Shown piece by piece: positions 341-21,292 of a stretch of 51,510 nucleotides of DNA. The stretch comes from Clostridia bacterium (GTDB lineage: Bacteria; Bacillota; Clostridia; UMGS1840): contig JAGAKI010000019.1 in NCBI GenBank assembly GCA_017625695.1, positions 1-51,510 of the forward strand, in the 5' to 3' direction. The position numbers were made by a program, and so were the translations under genes. The notes under the pieces were generated by a model. That model searched no databases. It worked only from the letters and a program-made list of their open reading frames with translations, and had not been told where the DNA came from. The stretch's first letter is position 1. Every line of letters starts with the position of its first letter.

Positions 341-502
341 TTAGATCTGAGAACCTTCATCTAACAGAGCCATATTGTAAGTGGTGGTGATTTTGCCACC
401 GGAAGTGGTTACAACAGCGGTTTCTAACGGATTCTCGTAAGCAATTGCTTCGTTGGACTGTAAAGAAGCAATTTCTAAAGAAGGGCTCATATAAGTTTTC
501 AT
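341..502 (-). CDS. Small peptide of 53 (or 55) residues, unknown function
   Basis: The peptide begins MKTYMSPSLEIASLQSNE and ends in LLDEGSQI, with a Thr/Ser/Gly-rich middle (around TTSGGKITTTY). It has no signal peptide, transmembrane segment or cysteine. A strong AGGAGG site precedes two in-frame ATGs: 508 (spacing 4) and 502 (spacing 10); I chose 502. It lies 17-23 nt downstream of the secreted protein gene and shares its promoter and terminator. The opening pattern, Met-Lys-x-Tyr-x-x-Pro followed by a hydrophobic/acidic stretch, resembles many unannotated short peptides of Clostridia, some of which I would suspect to be modified-peptide precursors. No maturation enzyme is visible here. 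Coding status is well supported by the ribosome binding site and context; function is unknown. Confidence 0.6.
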   Translation of the reverse strand: MKTYMSPSLEIASLQSNEAIAYENPLETAVVTTSGGKITTTYNMALLDEGSQI

Positions 503-525
503 ATTCATTTTTCCTCCTTATCAAA

Positions 526-1788
526 TTATTCTACAGTTACGGTCGCTGCATCGGTATAAGTATCACCCACGAAGAATCTGTAGGTTTTTTCGCCCGCAGT
601 ACCTTTTTCGGTGATGTTTGTTAAAACGATTTCAAAGGTACCATCCCAGTCACCAAAGGTGAAGGTAGTGGTGCCTTCCGCACCGTCGGAAACGGTATCA
701 CCATCTTTTGCACCGTAGAATTTTTTGCCTGCAACTTCAACGCCATAATCTTCATCCAAATGGTCAGCGCTTACTTTACCGTAAAAAGTTAATTCGTTAA
801 CACCGCCATTGGCGTCTGTATCAGTAATAGCAGAAATCAATTTGCAGTCTTCAATAGTGATGGTTTCCTGTTCAGTTGCATCCAATGCTTTCAGTTCAAT
901 AGACTGGAGAACATGGTGGGTGTGCTGAGCATGTACTTTAAGTTTATTGAAACCTTCGTTTAAGTAGAGATACTGATAATTGCCATCAGCATCAGTTGCT
1001 CTCCAAGCACCGGCATCATTTACGTAACCGGTCTGCAAGTATGCACGATAGGTGTCGTTTGCATCAATCCAAATTAACGGATAGGGATCTTTCGTTGTGC
1101 CGCCGATTTTCGCCTGCACTCTGTAAATGCCGGCAGCGGGAACTTCAACGCCGTAGCAAGCAATGGATTCCCCGTGAGGAAGGGTTGCGTTGGTGGATAA
1201 GTAGCGTTCAACTGTTCCAACGGTTTCTTCCGGGATCAAAGCAACCCACGGAAGAATTCCGATATCTTCCTGAATCGGAGTATCCAAAACTTTTACTAAG
1301 GGCAGATATACACTGTCATCAAAGCCATCCTTATTCAGTGCACAAACGTCAGAGTTACCAAATTCGAATGTAGTGGTACCGGCATTGGTAATTACAACCT
1401 TGTGAGTTCCTGCTTCAAAGTACATAGGCTGGTCACATTCAGTACTACCGGACTTACCTTCTGTCCAATCGGTATGGCTCAAAATGAATTCTGCATAATA
1501 CTTACCGGATGCAATATGAACAGTTGCAGTTCCATTTGTACTGCTCAAACGAATCTGAAGTGCGTATACACCGCTATGAGGTGCACTAAAGTATCCGCTT
1601 GCAGATTCACCGGGTTCTAAAACAGTATTTTGAACACCAAAATCTTTCAGAAAAACTCCGGTGCTACCTGCTTGATTGCCGGCATGACCTAACCATTCGG
1701 GGGTATCTTCCGCATATGCTACGAAAGAGGTTAATGTAAGGCTTAACAACATTACAATTGCTAAGCAAAGGTTGAGAACTTTTTTCAT
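526..1788 (-). CDS. Secreted protein with tandem carbohydrate-binding-like beta-sandwich domains
   Basis: A protein of 420 aa with a clear Sec signal peptide (KK, then a hydrophobic run of about 18 residues, cleavage near AYAED). The mature part looks like two related all-beta modules. Residues about 30-170 carry a SAPHSGVYALQIRLSS-type strand pattern. Residues about 190-300 carry an analogous PAAGIYRVQAKIGG pattern and end with LNEGFNKLKVHAQ. The phrase 'YFxAGTHKVVI' / 'LNEGFNKLKV' is typical of CBM6/CBM35-like or PA14-like lectin folds. The C-terminal 110 residues form a third, acidic beta-rich region. No catalytic motif, sortase motif or SLH domain was seen. The start is the ATG at 1788, 12 nt after AAAGGA; an upstream ATG at 1809 overlaps that site. 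It could be a polysaccharide- or surface-binding protein; this is inferred from fold-like patterns only. Confidence 0.55.
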   Translation of the reverse strand: MKKVLNLCLAIVMLLSLTLTSFVAYAEDTPEWLGHAGNQAGSTGVFLKDFGVQNTVLEPGESASGYFSAPHSGVYALQIRLSSTNGTATVHIASGKYYAEFILSHTDWTEGKSGSTECDQPMYFEAGTHKVVITNAGTTTFEFGNSDVCALNKDGFDDSVYLPLVKVLDTPIQEDIGILPWVALIPEETVGTVERYLSTNATLPHGESIACYGVEVPAAGIYRVQAKIGGTTKDPYPLIWIDANDTYRAYLQTGYVNDAGAWRATDADGNYQYLYLNEGFNKLKVHAQHTHHVLQSIELKALDATEQETITIEDCKLISAITDTDANGGVNELTFYGKVSADHLDEDYGVEVAGKKFYGAKDGDTVSDGAEGTTTFTFGDWDGTFEIVLTNITEKGTAGEKTYRFFVGDTYTDAATVTVE

Positions 1789-1910
1789 AGTTTTCAAATC
1801 CTTTCTCATTTTTATTTATTTTTTTTTTTTAACTTTGGAAGTGGGGGCAGACTTATTACTGCATATCAGAAAATATGAAATAATACACACTGTATGATTA
1901 AGATATTTGT

Positions 1911-1939
1911 ATCATACCATTTTATTTCTATTTTGTCAA
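1911..1939 (-). promoter_or_regulatory. Sigma-A promoter for the secreted protein/peptide operon
   Basis: On the minus strand, TTGACA (1934-1939) and TATGAT (1911-1916) are separated by exactly 17 bp. The insertion-sequence end lies 29 bp upstream, so the element stopped just short of this promoter. Confidence 0.7.
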
Positions 1940-1943
1940 TAGT

Positions 1944-1973
1944 AAATTGTAAAATTGTACTATTTTTTGTAGG
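1944..1973. repeat. Left copy of a ~30-bp imperfect direct repeat flanking the IS
   Basis: The sequence AAATTGTAAAATTGTACT followed by T-rich DNA and GTAGG recurs at 2726-2756 in the same orientation with only a few differences. It overlaps the left end of the IS element. Confidence 0.5.
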
Positions 1974-2725
1974 TTTGTCAATAATGTGTTACAAAAATAA
2001 TTAAAAAACTTCGCCATTTTCAAGGAAAGCTTTGATATAGTCAGCAGGAGCTTTCCAATTGAGAGGTCGCATGGGGAACTTGTTGTAGTTATAGTTATGC
2101 ACTTTTAATTGTTTTTCAAAATCATCAAATGAATAGAATTTATGTGTAGCATAGAAATATTCGTTTTGAACTCGTTGTCCGGGATAAAGCATTTTCTCAT
2201 AAGGCTTCGGAATATACTTTGGGTTGGGTGGTTTAACAGCCATTTGCCCTTGTCTCCGCAGAACACGATAAAGACCTGTTACAGAGCGAGAATATCCTCT
2301 CTGACGAAGTTTTACCCAAAAGACGACTAAACCTGCATGTGAGTTTCTTTTTCGCATATCAGCAATTAGTTTGAGTTCTTCGGCTGTATGTTGGTTTAGA
2401 CGATGATGTGGTTTGTGTGATTTATCAGCTAAGGATTGCAAAGTTTCATCGTATCTTTTTAACCATCTATAAACATATTGACGATTGACTTTGTAACGGA
2501 TTGCAGCTTTAGTTACTCCATTTTTTAAAGAATATTCAATGAATGCTTGCCTAAACTTTATAGTATTCATATACGGAAACCTTTCTTTGTGATAGTTTGT
2601 TTGTGGTGAATTAACTATAACACATTTTGGAAAGTTTCCGGATTCTTTTTTTACCGATATATTTTGTTATGAGTTTACTCGTAATAAAATATGTCGGAAT
2701 GTAACACATCTATTGTAAACCTACA
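1968..2725 (-). mobile_element. Deleted IS481/IS3-like insertion sequence with terminal inverted repeats
   Basis: The outer ends are 26-bp imperfect inverted repeats: 1968-1993 begins TGTAGGTTT and ends ATGTGTTACA; the reverse complement of 2700-2725 begins and ends identically, with 20 of 26 positions matching. TGT...ACA ends suit IS3/IS481-type elements. Inside lies a single transposase frame that lacks its catalytic core, so the element is about 760 bp rather than the >1 kb expected for an intact member. It cannot move on its own but could be mobilised by an intact copy elsewhere. Confidence 0.65.
2001..2570 (-). pseudogene. IS481/IS3-like transposase with in-frame deletion of the DDE core
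   Basis: The 189-residue frame has the N-terminal helix-turn-helix part of a DDE transposase (motif NRQYVYRWLKRYDE near residues 29-42) and runs normally to LYPGQRVQ at about residue 135. It then jumps straight to a C-terminal segment (NEYFYATHKFYSFDDF, MRPLNWKAP). In full-length relatives these parts are separated by more than 100 residues holding the catalytic Asp, Asp and Glu. The deletion keeps the reading frame, so a truncated DNA-binding product could still be made. An AAAGG site precedes the ATG. It may act only as a repressor or be non-functional; family assignment between IS481 and IS3 is from memory of motifs. Confidence 0.65.
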
Positions 2726-2756
2726 AAATTGTATAATTGTACTTTTTTTGTGTAGG
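2726..2756. repeat. Right copy of a ~30-bp imperfect direct repeat flanking the IS
   Basis: This matches 1944-1973 (AAATTGTATAATTGTACT, T-run, GTAGG). It starts where the right inverted repeat ends and runs into the IS3 fragment that follows. It is too long for a normal IS3/IS481 target duplication. Confidence 0.5.
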
Positions 2757-2952
2757 AAATCCCTATGATAATGCAATGGCAGAAAATTTCTTTTCAATTC
2801 TTAAAACTGAATGTATTTATAGAATGAAACTTAAAACATTTGATAAAGCTCGCCTCATCATAGATGAATATATACATTTTTACAACAATGAAAGAATACA
2901 ACTAAAAACAAAACTGACACCGTTAGAAAAACGATGCCAGTATGTTGCTTAA
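2755..2952 (+). pseudogene. C-terminal fragment of an IS3-family OrfB transposase
   Basis: About 65 codons encode the extreme C-terminus of an IS3/IS150-type transposase: GNPYDNAMAENFFSILKTE, then FYNNERIQLKTKLTPLEKR. The third catalytic acid (the Glu of AENF) is present, but everything upstream is missing. Homology begins abruptly at 2755, next to the direct-repeat copy and the other IS, so this is a remnant of a second, older element. An in-frame ATG at 2737 has no ribosome binding site and the frame is unlikely to be expressed. Confidence 0.7.
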
Positions 2953-3089
2953 ATCTAAATATTATACCATAAGAAGTCTTTTTTTGAAAGCTTAGATATG
3001 AGTTGAGCTGTTATAACATATCTATTTCCGTTTATAAAGAGTATTTTATGAAAAACATCATAGGAGTAACGGTTTTTTTATGTAGGACT

Positions 3090-3500
3090 TTATTTTTTCA
3101 GTAAATCTCTGATTTCTTCCAACAGAAGAATATCGTCCGGTTTCTTTGGCGGTTCTTCTTCTTTCACTTCTTCTTTTTTTCTTGAGAATTTTGACAGAAG
3201 TTTAATAAACAAGAAGATGGAAAATGCGATGATGACAAAATCAATAATATTCTGGATGAAGTTTCCGTATGCAATGGTTGCTTCGCCAACGACCCATGCC
3301 AGGCTCTTGAAATCCACACCGCCCAGTAATAATCCGATGGCAGGAGTTAAGATATCAGCAACCAGAGAGGTTACAATTTTTCCGAATGCACCGCCGATAA
3401 TTACGCCGACAGCCATATCCAGAACATTACCCTTTAATGCAAAGTTTTTAAATTCTCCCAAAAAGGAGCCTGCTTTGTTTACTGCTTTTTTCATACTCAT
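3090..3500 (-). CDS. mscL: Large-conductance mechanosensitive channel MscL
   Basis: A protein of 136 aa, the normal length for MscL, the homopentameric inner-membrane channel that opens under hypo-osmotic membrane tension. The N-terminal amphipathic helix leads into TM1, with the family signature [20 protein letters not shown] (about residues 20-39) and the pore-lining glycines/alanines. TM2 follows at about residues 80-105 ([20 protein letters not shown]). A charged cytoplasmic helix ([27 protein letters not shown]) closes the protein, as in homologues. GGAAAAG precedes the ATG at 3500; a second Met two codons later is possible. It lies 46 nt downstream of citrate synthase on the same strand and may be co-transcribed. 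Confidence 0.93.
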
Positions 3501-3546
3501 TCTTTTCCTTTTTATAGATATTGATTTTTATTACAATAACATTTGT

Positions 3547-4899
3547 TTATTCTCGTTCTTCCAACGGAATATAGGGAGCATCTTTGGATACGCATTTGTA
3601 TGCAGGTCGCATAATTTTTTTGTTCATAGAGATTTCTTCTAAAATGTGAGCACCCCAACCGGCAATTCTGGAAATTGCAAACAGGGGAGTGAATAATTCT
3701 TTCGGAATATCCAACATTTGATATACAAATCCGGAATACAAATCTACATTGGCACAGATGATTTTGTTGGTTTTGCGGTTGATGACAATGGGAGCCAGAC
3801 GTTCCACCGCTTCATATACCTTAAACTGTGCCATTGCACCTTTTTCTTCGGCAAGCTCTCTTGCTTTTTCCCGAAGTAATTCAGCACGGGGGTCAGAAAT
3901 GGTGTAGACTGCGTGGCCCATACCGTATATTAAACCGCTTTTATCGTAGGCTTTCTTGTCTAAGATTTTTGCAAGGTAATCCATGATTTCTTCGTCGCTG
4001 TCCCAGTTTTTCACATTCTGGAACAAGGATTCCATCATTTCTACTACCTTGATGTTGGCACCGCCGTGACGGGGTCCTTTTAGGGAACCGATTGCAGCTG
4101 CAATGGCAGAGTATACGTCGGTTCCGGAAGAGGTTACAACGTGAGTGGTAAAGGTGGAGTTGTTACCGCCGCCGTGTTCTGCATGAAGAATCAGCATCAG
4201 ATCCAAAATTTCAGCTTCTAAGGGAGTGAAGTGATTATCATTTCGGATTAAGTGTAAAAAGTTTTCGGCAATGGAATATTCCGGCACAGACTGATGAAGA
4301 ACCAGACTGTCCCCGTCATAATAATGCTTTTTCGCCTGATATCCGTAAGCCGCAATGGTGCTAAGACGGGCGATCAGCTGAATAATCTGACGGATCACAT
4401 TAGTGATGGCAGTATCGTCGGGAGTGGCATCGTAAGAGTACAATGCCAAAACACCTCTTGCGAGTTTGTTCATAATGTCTTTACTGGGAGCTTTTAAAAT
4501 CATATCTTCAGTAAAGCCGAAGGGCAGTTCCCGATAGCTTGCGATATTATCACAGAAGGTTTTGAATTCTTCCTGATTGGGAAGTTTGGAAAACAAAAGT
4601 AAAAAGATAACTTCTTCAAATCCTTTGCTTTTTCCTTTTAATCCTGCAATGATTTCACGAATTTCAATTCCACGGTAAGAAAGTCTGCCTGGAATTGCAA
4701 TTTTTTCGTCGTTTTCAATAATATAGCTGGTAACATTTCCCACAGTAGTCAAACCAACCAGAACCCCGGTACCGTTGGCATTACGAAGTCCTCGTTTTAC
4801 GTCGTATTTTTGGTATAACGAAGCATCAATCTGTGAAAAATCTTGAACCTTTTCAGACAAATGGTCGATATATTCTTTGGTGAGATGAGTTTTCTTCAT
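3547..4899 (-). CDS. gltA: Citrate synthase
   Basis: A protein of 450 aa that condenses acetyl-CoA with oxaloacetate. The family signatures are clear: an N-terminal region with IPGRLSYRGIEIREI, the first catalytic histidine region LILHAEHGGGNNSTFTTH, the GPRHGGAN loop, and a downstream GMGHAVYTISDPRAELLRE block with the second active-site histidine. The length and extended N-terminus fit the Firmicutes type II-like enzymes. The start is ATG at 4899, 11 nt after AAGGAG; a TTG-initiated extension to 4923 would overlap that site. In an anaerobe it probably feeds 2-oxoglutarate and glutamate synthesis; that role is inferred. Its leader has competing hairpins (see 4911-4974). Confidence 0.93.
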   Translation of the reverse strand: MKKTHLTKEYIDHLSEKVQDFSQIDASLYQKYDVKRGLRNANGTGVLVGLTTVGNVTSYIIENDEKIAIPGRLSYRGIEIREIIAGLKGKSKGFEEVIFLLLFSKLPNQEEFKTFCDNIASYRELPFGFTEDMILKAPSKDIMNKLARGVLALYSYDATPDDTAITNVIRQIIQLIARLSTIAAYGYQAKKHYYDGDSLVLHQSVPEYSIAENFLHLIRNDNHFTPLEAEILDLMLILHAEHGGGNNSTFTTHVVTSSGTDVYSAIAAAIGSLKGPRHGGANIKVVEMMESLFQNVKNWDSDEEIMDYLAKILDKKAYDKSGLIYGMGHAVYTISDPRAELLREKARELAEEKGAMAQFKVYEAVERLAPIVINRKTNKIICANVDLYSGFVYQMLDIPKELFTPLFAISRIAGWGAHILEEISMNKKIMRPAYKCVSKDAPYIPLEERE

Positions 4900-17291: not shown

Positions 17292-17771
17292 ATGGAAAAA
17301 ATCGAAAAAACCAATGCAATGCGAATTTTAGATAAACAAAAAATTACATATGCAGTAGAAACCTACGATGCATCTGATGGTGCCATTGACGGCGTAACCG
17401 TTGCCGGGAAAATTGGTCAGGATGCAAAATTTGTATATAAAACTTTGGTGACTCAAGGAAAAAGTAAAAATTATTTTGTGTTTGTGATTCCTGTGGAAAA
17501 AGAATTGGATTTAAAAGCTGCAGCCAAATCAGTTGGAGAAAAATCTGTAGAAATGATTGCAGTAAAAGATATCAATAAAATTACCGGATATATCCGTGGC
17601 GGCTGCTCTCCCGTTGGCATGAAAAAACAGTTCCGGACCGTGATTGACGCATCTGCAAAAGATTTAGAATTCTTTTTTGTCAGCGGTGGAAAAATCGGAC
17701 TGCAACTGAAACTGAATCCCGTATCTTTGGCGGAATTGATTTGTGCTGATTTTTGTGAAATTACTTTTTAG
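17292..17771 (+). CDS. ybaK: YbaK/EbsC family aminoacyl-tRNA deacylase
   Basis: A protein of 159 aa of the YbaK/ProX-like family, which hydrolyses mischarged Cys-tRNA(Pro). Recognisable blocks are KFVYKTLVTQGKSKNYFVFVIPVEKELDLKAAAK (the substrate pocket Lys is expected here), then TGYIRGGCSPVGMKKQFRTVID and a C-terminal GGKIGLQLKLNP. Length and motif order are normal. It stands alone between a terminator and a repeat-rich region. Confidence 0.9.
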   Translation: MEKIEKTNAMRILDKQKITYAVETYDASDGAIDGVTVAGKIGQDAKFVYKTLVTQGKSKNYFVFVIPVEKELDLKAAAKSVGEKSVEMIAVKDINKITGYIRGGCSPVGMKKQFRTVIDASAKDLEFFFVSGGKIGLQLKLNPVSLAELICADFCEITF

Positions 17772-17775
17772 TCCC

Positions 17776-17788
17776 GATTTGACACGAG
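17776..17788 (+). repeat. GA(C/T)TTGACACGAG repeat, left of unit A
   Basis: GATTTGACACGAG lies just after ybaK. Its inverse, CTCGTGTCAAGTC, occurs at 19825-19837 after the next gene. A second such pair is at 19992-20004 and 20622-20634. Confidence 0.6.
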
Positions 17789-17989
17789 CGTTGCAAGGCA
17801 ACGCAGCGATATAAATTCCTGACGGAATTTGCGATATATCCTTGCGGATGCGATATACCTAAAGGTGCGATATCTCCCTTCGGGACGAGAAAAGGGAATT
17901 TATATTATATCGCAACGGAGCAAAGCGGAGTTATATCGCATTTGAACAGAGTGAAAATATATCGCACGAACAGAGTGAGTATATCGCCA
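17786..17989. repeat. Intergenic palindromic repeat built on GCGATAT
   Basis: About 200 bp hold four direct copies of GCGATAT (17806, 17831, 17850, 17867), then four inverted copies ATATCGC (17907, 17933, 17959, 17981). Small hairpins fill the gaps: GCGTTGC/GCAACGC, AAATTCC/GGAATTT, ACC/GGT and CTCCC/GGGACGAG. GAACAGAGTGA occurs twice near the right end. The stretch opens an apparent frame from 17942, but this is repeat DNA, not coding sequence. Confidence 0.7.
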
Positions 17990-18067
17990 AAACAAGTTGC
18001 ATCTAAACCTTATGCCTCGCAATTAAAGAGTATCGAATATTGTCGAAAAGGAAAGAAGGTATCATTT

Positions 18068-19807
18068 ATGAAAAAAATGTTTGCAGTGCTTATCATTTTG
18101 GTATGTTTTAGTTCTTCGTTTGTAGTTTATGCAGATACAAATGGTGAGTATAATTGTAGCGATTGGGCAAAAGAAAGCATTGACAGAGCTTTTAACACCT
18201 ATCTTTTAGATGGTGAAAAAGAGTATGAATTCAAAACTAATATTTCTCGCTTGGATTTTTGCGAATTGATATTTAATCTGGTTATACAGACACCTTATTT
18301 TCAAACATGGTGTGAAGAAAATCCTGAGGGGAATGGGGAAGAGTTTCCATCTTTTATAGAGAAATCTTTTGTTGATACAGAAGCTGAAGAAGTGCTTTTC
18401 TTACATCACATTGGAATTATTAATGGAAAAACAGAAACTGAATTTGCACCTAACGACAATCTTACCCGTGAAGAAGCGGCAACTATTATTGTACGTATGA
18501 TAGATATTGCAACTCCAATGGAAGCAACAGAAGTTTGGTATGAGTATAATGATTTAGGCGACATATCCGATTGGGCGATGAGTCCCGTTCAGAGAATAAG
18601 CAATTTGGGATTTATGAAAGGTGTTGGAGAAAATAAATTTGCTCCCAAGGATACATATACGACGGAACAGGCAGTTGTTACAGTTGTTAGAGTTTTTGAT
18701 GCCAATTACATAAATTGGATTGCTGAAATTATAAAAAAAGAAGCAGGCGAGCTTGGTTATGTATACGAAAATGACACATGGAATTATGTAACATATGATA
18801 TGGCGGTTGGAAGAAGAGTTAAGCCTATTGACGTTAACAAAGATGAATTTAAAGTGCATAAAAACGAAAAATTTGCCTTTGATAATAAAAATGTATATCT
18901 TATGGGGAATAAGATAGAAGATGCTGACCCGATGACATTTCAAATTATTACTGATGATGGGAAGATGCGTTATGCTAAAGACAAAAAATCAGTATACATC
19001 TACCTTGAAGATGGTGCAATTATGAAAGTTATCGGTGCAGATCCGGGAACATTTGAAGTGTTGGATTATCCTTATGCAAAAGATAAGAATGATGCATATA
19101 ATGGATGCTTACCGCTGTATGTAGATGATGTTACAAAATTTGAGGTTGTCGAAAGCGGTGACGGATGGACAAGAATCAGTTTTCCGGATTCGTTTTTAAC
19201 AACAGCATTAAATTCCAAGGAAGTTGCAGAATACAATAATAAGAAATACGGATTTATTGATACAGCAGTTATATATTCTGAGCAAGGAAAGGCTAAAACG
19301 GAAAAATTAATTTATGAGGGATACAGAATTATGGAAGAAAAAACGGATATATGGACGATTGAAGAAAAGGAAAACTTTATAGTTGAAATGAGCCAATATA
19401 TAGCAGAAAAATGCGAGTATGGAGATAATATGGGAAATTTGAATGAAGAACAGAGAGTTTTCTATATTACGCAGGCTCTAGAAATGGAAGTAAATAATGG
19501 TGGTTTTTCGCAATTCTTCTTTAACTCAGATGGGTGTTTTGGCAATGAAATTGTTTCTTCTTTTGAAAAAATAGGTGCTATGAAAACGGCAGAGATTTGC
19601 AAAAAGGCGATTAGCATATATGGAGATAAAGTTCCAACTGACAGAGATGAAAGAGAAGATGTTTTAACTCCTGATGATGAAAAAGAGGAAGAAAGAATAG
19701 AAGAAATACTTAACGAATGTGATGATGCTTTCTTTGAATATGAAGATGATTTACTTGAATTAAATTATCAGTTTATTATTAACAATAAAGAATCGTTTTT
19801 GAAATAA
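18068..19807 (+). CDS. Secreted SLH - DKNYY-like - DUF4375-like chimeric protein
   Basis: A protein of 579 aa. The signal peptide (MKKMFAVLIILVCFSSSFVVYA) is followed by SLH-like repeats over about residues 30-210 (LHHIGIINGKTETEFAPND, LTREEAATIIVRMID, NLGFMKGVGENKFAPKD). A middle part has DKNYY-style repeats (FAFDNKNVYLMGNKIED, YAKDKKSVYIYLED, YAKDKNDAYN). The C-terminal ~110 residues match the DUF4375/DMP19 pattern: YITQALEMEVNNGGFSQFFF, then a DDAFFEYEDDLLELNYQ end. DUF4375 proteins are normally thought of as cytoplasmic, so a signal peptide plus SLH fusion is odd. The start is ATG 18068 after AAAGAAGG. Base use is more AT-rich than the neighbours, and repeats on both sides suggest acquired DNA. 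Confidence 0.7.
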   Translation: MKKMFAVLIILVCFSSSFVVYADTNGEYNCSDWAKESIDRAFNTYLLDGEKEYEFKTNISRLDFCELIFNLVIQTPYFQTWCEENPEGNGEEFPSFIEKSFVDTEAEEVLFLHHIGIINGKTETEFAPNDNLTREEAATIIVRMIDIATPMEATEVWYEYNDLGDISDWAMSPVQRISNLGFMKGVGENKFAPKDTYTTEQAVVTVVRVFDANYINWIAEIIKKEAGELGYVYENDTWNYVTYDMAVGRRVKPIDVNKDEFKVHKNEKFAFDNKNVYLMGNKIEDADPMTFQIITDDGKMRYAKDKKSVYIYLEDGAIMKVIGADPGTFEVLDYPYAKDKNDAYNGCLPLYVDDVTKFEVVESGDGWTRISFPDSFLTTALNSKEVAEYNNKKYGFIDTAVIYSEQGKAKTEKLIYEGYRIMEEKTDIWTIEEKENFIVEMSQYIAEKCEYGDNMGNLNEEQRVFYITQALEMEVNNGGFSQFFFNSDGCFGNEIVSSFEKIGAMKTAEICKKAISIYGDKVPTDRDEREDVLTPDDEKEEERIEEILNECDDAFFEYEDDLLELNYQFIINNKESFLK

Positions 19808-19824
19808 AACGAGAACACGATGTA

Positions 19825-19866
19825 CTCGTGTCAAGTCTATAAAATTTAAAAGATTAGTTTGCCGAT
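19825..19866 (+). repeat. 42-bp direct repeat, copy 1 (after unit A)
   Basis: It begins CTCGTGTCAAGTC and ends ATTAGTTTGCCGAT. The copy at 20622-20663 matches at 37 of 42 positions. Both copies start 18-30 nt after a gene stop. Confidence 0.75.
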
Positions 19867-20052
19867 AATAAATATTTACATATCGGGCAGGAAAATCTAA
19901 TATTCCTGCGGGTTCTAATGGAATTTGTTCAAGTTAAAACAGTGAAAAGTTTAAGAAAAATATAGTAGATCCTATTATTCACTGTTCTCCTGACTTGACA
20001 CGAGTAAGAATTGTGTCGAAAGATTGGTATTTATGTTGAAAGGTGTAAAAAT
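19867..20052. other. Spacer between the two accessory units with dyads
   Basis: No gene was seen. GCAGGAA/TTCCTGC and AACAGTGAA/TTCACTGTT form hairpins in this stretch. GACTTGACACGAG at 19992-20004 is the left repeat of unit B. Confidence 0.4.
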
Positions 20053-20592
20053 ATGAAGAAAACATTTTTAATACTTTCTATTGTTTTGGCTTTTGTTTTA
20101 GCAATATGTGCATTTAATTATAAATGGATATATTATCGTTTTTATCCTTTTGACAGAATTACGGGAGAGTATGAAATTACTGTAAATGGTAAAGAAGTAA
20201 ATACCATTGAAGAATATTATGAGTATGAAAATGGCGGTAAAATCAGGCTTGAAAATGATACTGAAAACTTTAAAATTAAAGCAGGTAAATATGGCCCATA
20301 TAAAATTGGTTTTGTTATAAGTGATGAAAAACTACACGAATTAACAAAAGACGATAGGTTTATTGATTATGGAAATGTGGACTTGTCCATAATTTGTTTT
20401 GAAACAAATTGGTGGCATATTTCGGAACTAGATATTGAAATTGATATTCGCAAAGAAAATGATGAATGGTTTGTCTGCTACGATGTTGAATATTCTAATG
20501 CGTTGGAAAACGATGAAGAATTAGGACAAAGAGTGACAAAGAAAGTTTTGTTAAGTGAAGTTTCCAAATCAGATATATATGTTGGAATATAA
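20053..20592 (+). CDS. Membrane-anchored or secreted protein of unknown function
   Basis: A protein of 179 aa. One N-terminal hydrophobic helix (LILSIVLAFVLAICAF) ends without a clear cleavage or lipobox motif. The remaining ~150 residues are acidic and beta-rich, with aromatic clusters (YKWIYYRFYPF, ETNWWHI, EEYYEYE). I recognise no family. GAAAGGTG lies 8 nt before ATG 20053. The gene is AT-rich and sits between inverted GACTTGACACGAG copies (19992 and 20622), like its neighbour upstream. An extracytoplasmic role is inferred from the topology only. Confidence 0.6.
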   Translation: MKKTFLILSIVLAFVLAICAFNYKWIYYRFYPFDRITGEYEITVNGKEVNTIEEYYEYENGGKIRLENDTENFKIKAGKYGPYKIGFVISDEKLHELTKDDRFIDYGNVDLSIICFETNWWHISELDIEIDIRKENDEWFVCYDVEYSNALENDEELGQRVTKKVLLSEVSKSDIYVGI

Positions 20593-20621
20593 AGCCTGAA
20601 TGTCATTATGGTTTATTTTTA

Positions 20622-20663
20622 TTCGTGTCAAGTCCATACAGTTTAAAACATTAGTTTGCCGAT
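20622..20663 (+). repeat. 42-bp direct repeat, copy 2 (after unit B)
   Basis: TTCGTGTCAAGTC...ATTAGTTTGCCGAT, 37 of 42 bp identical to 19825-19866. Confidence 0.75.
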
Positions 20664-20720
20664 TTGTGGAACATTTTTCCTTATTGTGTTGTCTTAATTG
20701 GTAGAAAGGTGGGATGGATC

Positions 20721-20954
20721 ATGAAAAAAATATGCTGCATGATGGTGTTGCTTTTTTGCAGAACATTATCAACTAATTCCGCTCAGGAAAAAGGATTGCA
20801 ACCTCTGTCTGCTTTGCAAGTTCAGGATTCTATACAGCAAGACATGATTCAAAACGATTTAGTATATCATGGGGAAGAACATGAGTTTCACGATTTGGTA
20901 TACCGTGGGGAAAAAATCACGATTATACAATTATCGGAAGCTGCTCCCCAATAA
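20721..20954 (+). CDS. Small secreted peptide of unknown function
   Basis: A protein of 77 aa with a short, cysteine-containing signal-like start (MKKICCMMVLLFCRTLS) and a hydrophilic remainder. The heptad-like motif DLVYHGE is repeated as DLVYRGE 13 residues later. AAAGGTGGG precedes the ATG at 20721 by 10 nt. It lies after the second 42-bp repeat and is closed by a strong terminator. No homology is recognised; expression is plausible but unproven. Confidence 0.45.
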   Translation: MKKICCMMVLLFCRTLSTNSAQEKGLQPLSALQVQDSIQQDMIQNDLVYHGEEHEFHDLVYRGEKITIIQLSEAAPQ

Positions 20955-21022: not shown

Positions 21023-21292
21023 TTATTCAGCAGCTTTGATTTCTTCAAAACATGCACTGCAATAAACCGGTTTGTCATCTCTGGGGATGAAAGGAACTTT
21101 TGCTTCTCCGCCACATTTAGCGCAAACAGCAGTGTGCAGTTCTCTTTTCGCACCTTTTCTTGCGGTTCTGCAATCTTTACATCTGGAAGGTTTGTTCTGG
21201 AAACCTTTTTCAGCGTAGAATTCCTGTTCACCAGCAGTGAATACAAATTCAGCTCCACAGTCTTTGCAGATTAAAGTTTCGTCTTGATACAT
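21023..21292 (-). CDS. Zinc-ribbon domain protein
   Basis: A protein of 89 aa with four CxxC pairs: CKDCG, CKDCR, CAKCG and CSAC. The first two frame a typical 'probable zinc-ribbon' domain (ICKDCGAEFVFTAGEQEFY...PSRCKDCR), and the last two form a second knuckle ending PVYCSACFEEIK. Small proteins of this type are common in Clostridia, highly expressed and of unknown function; nucleic-acid or protein binding is assumed. AGGAGAG lies upstream of the ATG at 21292. It shares a bidirectional terminator with the converging gene. Confidence 0.8.
   Translation of the reverse strand: MYQDETLICKDCGAEFVFTAGEQEFYAEKGFQNKPSRCKDCRTARKGAKRELHTAVCAKCGGEAKVPFIPRDDKPVYCSACFEEIKAAE

Follow-up and report, generated by a model that had tools for sequence, protein, structure and literature searches.

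A probable two-cassette array of an integron-like system in a Clostridia bacterium, with a TnpX-like recombinase as candidate founding enzyme

Integrons are reported to be extremely rare in Firmicutes (PMC9024848), and the route by which single accessory genes are acquired in gut Clostridia is unclear. The window analysed here, a stretch of 51,510 nucleotides from a Clostridia bacterium, contains two neighbouring genes bounded by the same short repeats, which a preliminary description had likened to gene cassettes or a non-autonomous mobile unit. This locus raises the question of whether such genes are exchanged as units, and by what means. Our best explanation is that positions 17776-20666 form an array of two cassettes belonging to an integron-like system, with cassette exchange at the core/linker and a TnpX-like recombinase as likely founding enzyme (probability of roughly 0.6). 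Taken on its own, the cassette-array reading is strongly favoured; a large serine recombinase as the engine is proposed tentatively.

Structure of the array in the window

The features of the array and its flanks were the following.

17292..17771, + strand: ybaK-like aminoacyl-tRNA editing gene, left flank (Pfam match, PF04073)
17776-20666: two-cassette array (unit A, 17776-19866; unit B, 19992-20663)
17776..17788, + strand: first left-end core of the array, GATTTGACACGAG, after a T-run and CCC (TTTTTAGTCCC), the array-start signature
17789..18067, + strand: leader of cassette A, with a GCGATATA/TATATCGC hairpin array (about 17804-17997), TTGCATCTAAACCTTATG (17997-18014) and TTGTCGAAAAGG 5' of the start codon
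18068..19807, + strand: gene of cassette A, 579 aa, secreted (SLH 8e-13, DKNYY 1e-18, DMP19 2e-25)
19823..19866, + strand: first copy of the 44-nt direct repeat, inverted core plus ATTTAAAAGATTAGTTTGCCGAT
19825..19837, - strand: inverted core, 3' end of cassette A (CTCGTGTCAAGTC on the + strand)
19839..19991, + strand: structured linker between units A and B, about 155 bp (linker alignment, fold and pair counts)
19862-19866 and 19882-19886: linker helix 1, CCGAT/ATCGG
19887-19893 and 19903-19909: linker helix 2, GCAGGAA/TTCCTGC
19938-19946 and 19978-19986: linker helix 3, AACAGTGAA/TTCACTGTT, read directly from the window sequence
19992..20004, + strand: left-end core of cassette B, GACTTGACACGAG
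20005..20052, + strand: leader of cassette B, starting TAAGAATTGTGTCGAA, with conservation extending to a second family of the order
20053..20592, + strand: gene of cassette B, 179 aa, membrane-anchored, without Pfam match
20620..20666, + strand: second copy of the 44-nt repeat; at the right end of the array the linker breaks off after ...GCCGATTT, leaving its 5' part
20622..20634, - strand: inverted core, 3' end of cassette B (TTCGTGTCAAGTC on the + strand, one change)
20664..20954, + strand: short ORF, right flank, only the C-terminal part of a membrane protein of about 180-200 aa, of which genomes G002 and G004 have a longer version at this site
21023..21292, - strand: conserved 89-aa zinc-ribbon gene, right flank, marker for finding the orthologous site

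The four 13-mers on which the preliminary description rested were all recovered, the last of them with one change. Its 42-bp direct repeat proved real and spans 44 nt (19823-19866 vs. 20620-20663, 89% identical), with the inverted 13-mer inside it. The two genes are indeed unrelated, and both units are more AT-rich than their surroundings (GC 0.28-0.36 vs. about 0.37-0.44). Two points could not be seen from the window alone: 19839-19991 is itself conserved and separates unrelated genes in other genomes as well, and the second 42-bp copy represents the beginning of a linker that has been truncated. The stop codon of the ybaK-like gene lies within TTTTTAG, immediately 5' of the first core. On the other side, the 20664-20954 ORF keeps only the C-terminal NDLVYxGE...DLVYRGE repeats of the membrane protein, whose front part may have been replaced by the array.

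Matches to the AYTTGACACGAR pattern numbered seven in the genome of the window (G000) and none with the reversed-pattern control, and the pattern was present in 5/5 genomes of the genus, which indicated that its recurrence is not due to chance; with two mismatches allowed, the signal was lost in noise (14 matches vs. 29 in the control). An ordinary promoter or terminator role had been considered for the repeats, but promoter- and terminator-like sites in the units stayed at shuffle level. A reading of the core as a -35 box (TTGACA) was likewise rejected, no -10 lying at the right distance.

Related arrays and their changing contents

The architecture is conserved well beyond the window. Cassettes begin with the core CCTGACTTGACACGAR, which is followed by a short leader and, in most cases, a single gene; an inverted core often comes last. 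Between a cassette and the core of the next one lies a conserved structured linker of 117-344 bp. A pattern scan of about 85,000 species genomes gave 43 array stretches in about 30 Clostridia/Oscillospiraceae MAGs, a distribution and a uniformity biased by the strict and exact discovery pattern. The genomes compared all appear to be MAGs, and the host names in the titles of those bearing arrays are mostly of ruminants (goat, sheep, water buffalo, deer, and yak gut). No linker was found in the phage, plasmid, and viral-contig collections. The repeats, recurring beside many other genes in dozens of genomes, are thus not confined to the window, in agreement with the cassette or mobile-unit reading of the preliminary description. 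By BLAST, the own genome held no linker beyond the array of the window, and further copies in the genus (G001:C1, C5, C10 and G004:C10) occurred only between other genes; linkers recur between unrelated genes in G000, G001, and G004. Another family of the same order provided a textbook core-gene-inverted core-linker array (G008:C12, locus L125). Array starts carry a T-run and a C/T-rich tail 5' of the core (TTTTTAGTCCTGACTTGACACGAR; TTTTTAGTCCCGATTTGACACGAG in the window).

The longest ORF was co-directional (sense strand) in 44/44 delimited cassettes. Their size had a median of 953 bp (range 424-4893), and their GC content was 0.32 vs. 0.38 for the array loci.

Cassettes are common to different contexts. 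Copies of unit B, 96-99% identical at the nucleotide level, were found in three other MAGs (L134, L172, L149), so that it is present in four contexts; neighbours and linker types differ among the copies, and the linker 5' of unit B is short in two of them and has an extra module in L134. Relatives of unit A occur in the arrays of L160 (81% nucleotide identity) and L147, and other cassettes are common to L104/L158, L146/L174, L166/L174, L152/L176, L022/L141, and L106/L109. Conversely, the same sites hold different contents (L149/L176 and L054/L102). The site between the ybaK-like and zinc-ribbon genes is empty in G002 and G004, where the ybaK-like gene occurs without an array, holds units A and B in G000, and has other cassettes in G001 (L127 + L104, read across a contig break), again with the ybaK-like gene 5' of the array. 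The comparison of strains that the preliminary description had suggested thus showed units present, absent or swapped. No site was found that is cleanly empty to the exact base; the ybaK and fbaA sites vary, though not tidily, and the fbaA site also has genes without cores. With regard to target-site duplication, inverted repeats are present at the units of the window, but there is no clean empty site for comparison. From these exchanges we infer that cassettes are swapped by recombination at the core/linker.

Linkers, array heads and a candidate engine

We extracted 49 distinct linkers, from the start of the right repeat to the next left core, and aligned 46 of them. Common features were a short CCGAT/ATCGG helix, a 7-bp helix, and optional hairpin modules. 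In 14-15 of the aligned sequences, both arms of the 7-bp helix are changed (GCGAGAA/TTCTCGC vs. GCAGGAA/TTCCTGC), and the stems of the optional modules also change together. Wobble pairs were G-T in 19 cases vs. A-C in one, which points to the sense strand, that is, the coding strand, as the one that probably folds. Linkers are mosaic, including mixtures of types I and II: marker pairs displayed all four combinations (inverted core by inner type, 22/10/13/3), indicating that linkers recombine, as had been thought possible for the repeats of the window. The inverted core was present 5' of 25/48 linkers and missing in 23/48, and terminal linkers were truncated at varied points, unlike precise site-specific ends. 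A nested palindrome (GTAGGGGCGATTCACGAATCGCCCG and variants) occupies one fixed linker position in L152:2195-2527, L167:6870-7211, L135:682-935, and L172:922-1257, and looks like a small palindromic insertion.

No recombinase was found near the array of the window, so that the absence of an integrase noted earlier holds there; in two relatives, a large serine recombinase stands at the array head. Among the Pfam families of one half of the array flanks, the first, large serine recombinase was the most frequent (four members, with two more in the other half); no tyrosine recombinase was found among 270 ORFs of array loci. L154 has three tandem genes, its contig beginning inside the first of them and its array ending about 50 bp before a nucleosidase gene, and L141 has a single gene plus the end of a second. 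Serine recombinases are encoded at 3103-4713 in L154 and at 2955-4541 in L141. In both loci the last recombinase gene is TnpX/TndX-like, with 71% identity between the two. A "head" linker begins within about 50 bp 3' of the recombinase in L154 and L141 and is followed by the first core and cassettes; in it, a promoter replaces the CCGAT/ATCGG region, with TTGCAA-17-TGnTATAAT exact in L141 and TAAAAT as the -10 in L154 (extended -10). The same head linker occurs in L164, at a contig end. Promoter-bearing head linkers were absent from the window, and none was linked to arrays in its genus. The link with the recombinase rests on these two clear loci, L154 and L141, together with a weaker one, L174, where the recombinases are tandem and about 40% similar, with a gene in between. 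The three genomes with an array flanked by a recombinase, RGIG1655, RGIG8497, and RGIG5265, also have the largest numbers of array loci in the pattern scan, an overlap that is only suggestive because more loci give more chances.

Another candidate engine, a widespread XerA-like tyrosine recombinase of about 280 aa, was rejected as it is missing from several array-bearing genomes, e.g. G008. It adjoins palindromes of its own, CCACATAAT/ATTATGTGG (CCACATAATnnnATTATGTGG), at loci L128-L131 (G000:C64, G001:C3, G004:C19, and G002:C13), and is apparently a phase-variation invertase.

On the reading that we propose, each cassette extends from its left-end core through leader and gene to a 3' end where the structured linker begins. 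As the end of that linker provides the core of the next cassette, the cassettes follow one another head to tail and in a single orientation, in the manner of cassettes separated by attC sites. The founding enzyme would most likely be the TnpX-like large serine recombinase with which a few "complete" arrays start, adjoining a linker whose extended -10 promoter would be the analogue of Pc/attI. In two relatives the serine recombinase directly precedes the promoter-bearing head linker and the cassettes, as the integrase precedes attI/Pc. The arrays would thus work like an integron, and a serine recombinase, possibly along with homologous recombination between linkers, is the best but unproven engine. 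The array of the window would be an orphan comparable to a CALIN that lacks an integrase, and its reshuffling would be due mainly to recombination between homologous linkers or to a recombinase supplied in trans. Such homologous recombination very probably plays a part, and may even be all that is still active in this orphan array. The system could also be a serine-recombinase "integron", to which we give a minor probability: Clostridia would then have a cassette-capture platform of independent origin, with recombinase, primary promoter linker, and swappable single-gene cassettes with structured linkers in the roles that IntI, attI/Pc, and attC have in proteobacteria.

The most serious alternative, to which we give a minor share of probability, dispenses with a dedicated recombinase: linkers would be dispersed repeats, and RecA-type recombination, after DNA uptake or conjugation, would swap genes between near-identical copies. 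Mosaic linkers with their type I/II mixtures, the lack of tyrosine recombinases, the many arrays without a recombinase nearby, and the variable truncation of array ends all fit with it, but it does not account for one structured linker being found in the same orientation at many places in the chromosome, each time with different single genes beside it and with dozens of unrelated genes in all. The conserved pair of recombinase and head linker in L141 and L154 is likewise left unexplained. It is unlikely that the linker is primarily an RNA element (e.g. an intercistronic processing or regulatory RNA) hitchhiking with operons, with cassette shuffling as a secondary effect. Such an element would agree with the wobble asymmetry, the strict co-orientation of linkers and genes, and the position of the core just 5' of the ribosome-binding site; against it, cassettes move independently of linker type, first cassettes have no linker 5', and Rfam 15 gave no linker match at the gathering score or up to E=5. 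Very improbable are MITE-like units, non-autonomous transposons with terminal inverted repeats mobilized in trans by a DDE or HUH transposase. Although inverted 13-mers bound both units of the window, the inverted core is lacking at nearly half of the linkers, units are always head to tail with a linker, transposase families are not among the commonest in flanks or cargo, and the similarity between unlike units lies in the linker, outside the inverted repeats.

The integron-like reading with a TnpX-like founder has to be set against known systems. The array-head recombinase of L154 and L141 resembles TnpX of Tn4451 and TndX of Tn5397. In the large serine recombinase elements Tn4451, Tn5397, and SCCmec (Ccr), one element is moved by its own enzyme, and none of the three is known to assemble single-gene cassettes into arrays. 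No description of such a cassette system was found in the literature searched, and the arrays are apparently undescribed. With integron arrays and the integrase-less CALINs, both known from IntegronFinder 2.0 (PMC9024848), they share mostly single-gene, co-directional cassettes placed head to tail, a structured repeat between them, diverse cargo, cassette size, the occurrence of orphan arrays and, possibly, a recombinase and promoter at the head. A canonical integron remnant (CALIN) with IntI-type attC sites is nevertheless largely refuted and barely credible: IntI integrase (TIGR02249) was above cut-off in 0/33 array-bearing genomes, attC boxes (RYYYAAC...GTTRRRY) occurred in 2/49 linkers as compared to a shuffled mean of 1.2 and maximum of 4 (chance level), the linker is long and has a conserved primary sequence, folding probably concerns the coding strand, and the candidate enzyme is a serine recombinase. 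As the two defining tests (IntI and attC) failed, the arrays are not to be filed as integrons, which are reported to be extremely rare in Firmicutes (PMC9024848). In the pdif/dif modules of Acinetobacter plasmids (PMC6449649, PMC13141974), accessory genes without relation to one another likewise lie between short inverted sites and are shuffled as modules; genes are bounded in this way in both units of the window and in about half of the cassettes elsewhere. Unlike those modules, the Clostridia arrays are chromosomal, have a structured linker, and lack a dif-like site above background, the best arm match to the 28-bp XerC/XerD site being 15/22 in the units, with a window maximum of 16 and a linker median of 13.

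If true, a convergent cassette platform next to the integron would account for some of the variable gene content of gut Clostridia, including many defence-like ATPases, and would supply a new pair of recombination site and enzyme. The linker could be used as a marker for mining accessory and defence genes in rumen and gut metagenomes.

Leaders and cargo of the cassettes

Leaders often contain TGTCGAA. In several of them, GCGATATA/TATATCGC hairpin arrays (elsewhere GCTAAATT) lie directly 3' of the core; such arrays occurred at 17804-17997 in the window, in L142:7651-7905, and in contigs C21, C81, and C8 of G000. A weak, sub-threshold match to Gut-1 RNA covered 17804-17878. A TTGCATCTAAACCTTATGYSTCGCAA-like motif was present in leaders 3' of cores in the window (17997-18014) and in L022, L023, L027, L140, L160, and L176, often 5' of the TGTCGAA(AG) ribosome-binding-site region.

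Cassette proteins (n = 66) matched 74 Pfam families, including AAA_21/AAA_15 ATPases, DUF4379, C5 methylase, RhuM, beta-lactamase and CAT folds, LRR_5, and SLH, along with DMP19/DKNYY proteins and surface proteins. The AAA proteins matched models of defence ATPases (AAA/OLD-like). No recombinase appeared among the 25 commonest cargo families listed. At L054:2619-4190, the cargo 3' of the core in G003 reads, from its sequence only, as a sigma-70 region 4-like regulator, and the same site in G001 holds instead a DUF4379 endonuclease-like cassette. In the array flanks of loci L156-L176, one protein matched restriction endonuclease EcoRI (PF02963, 6e-135).
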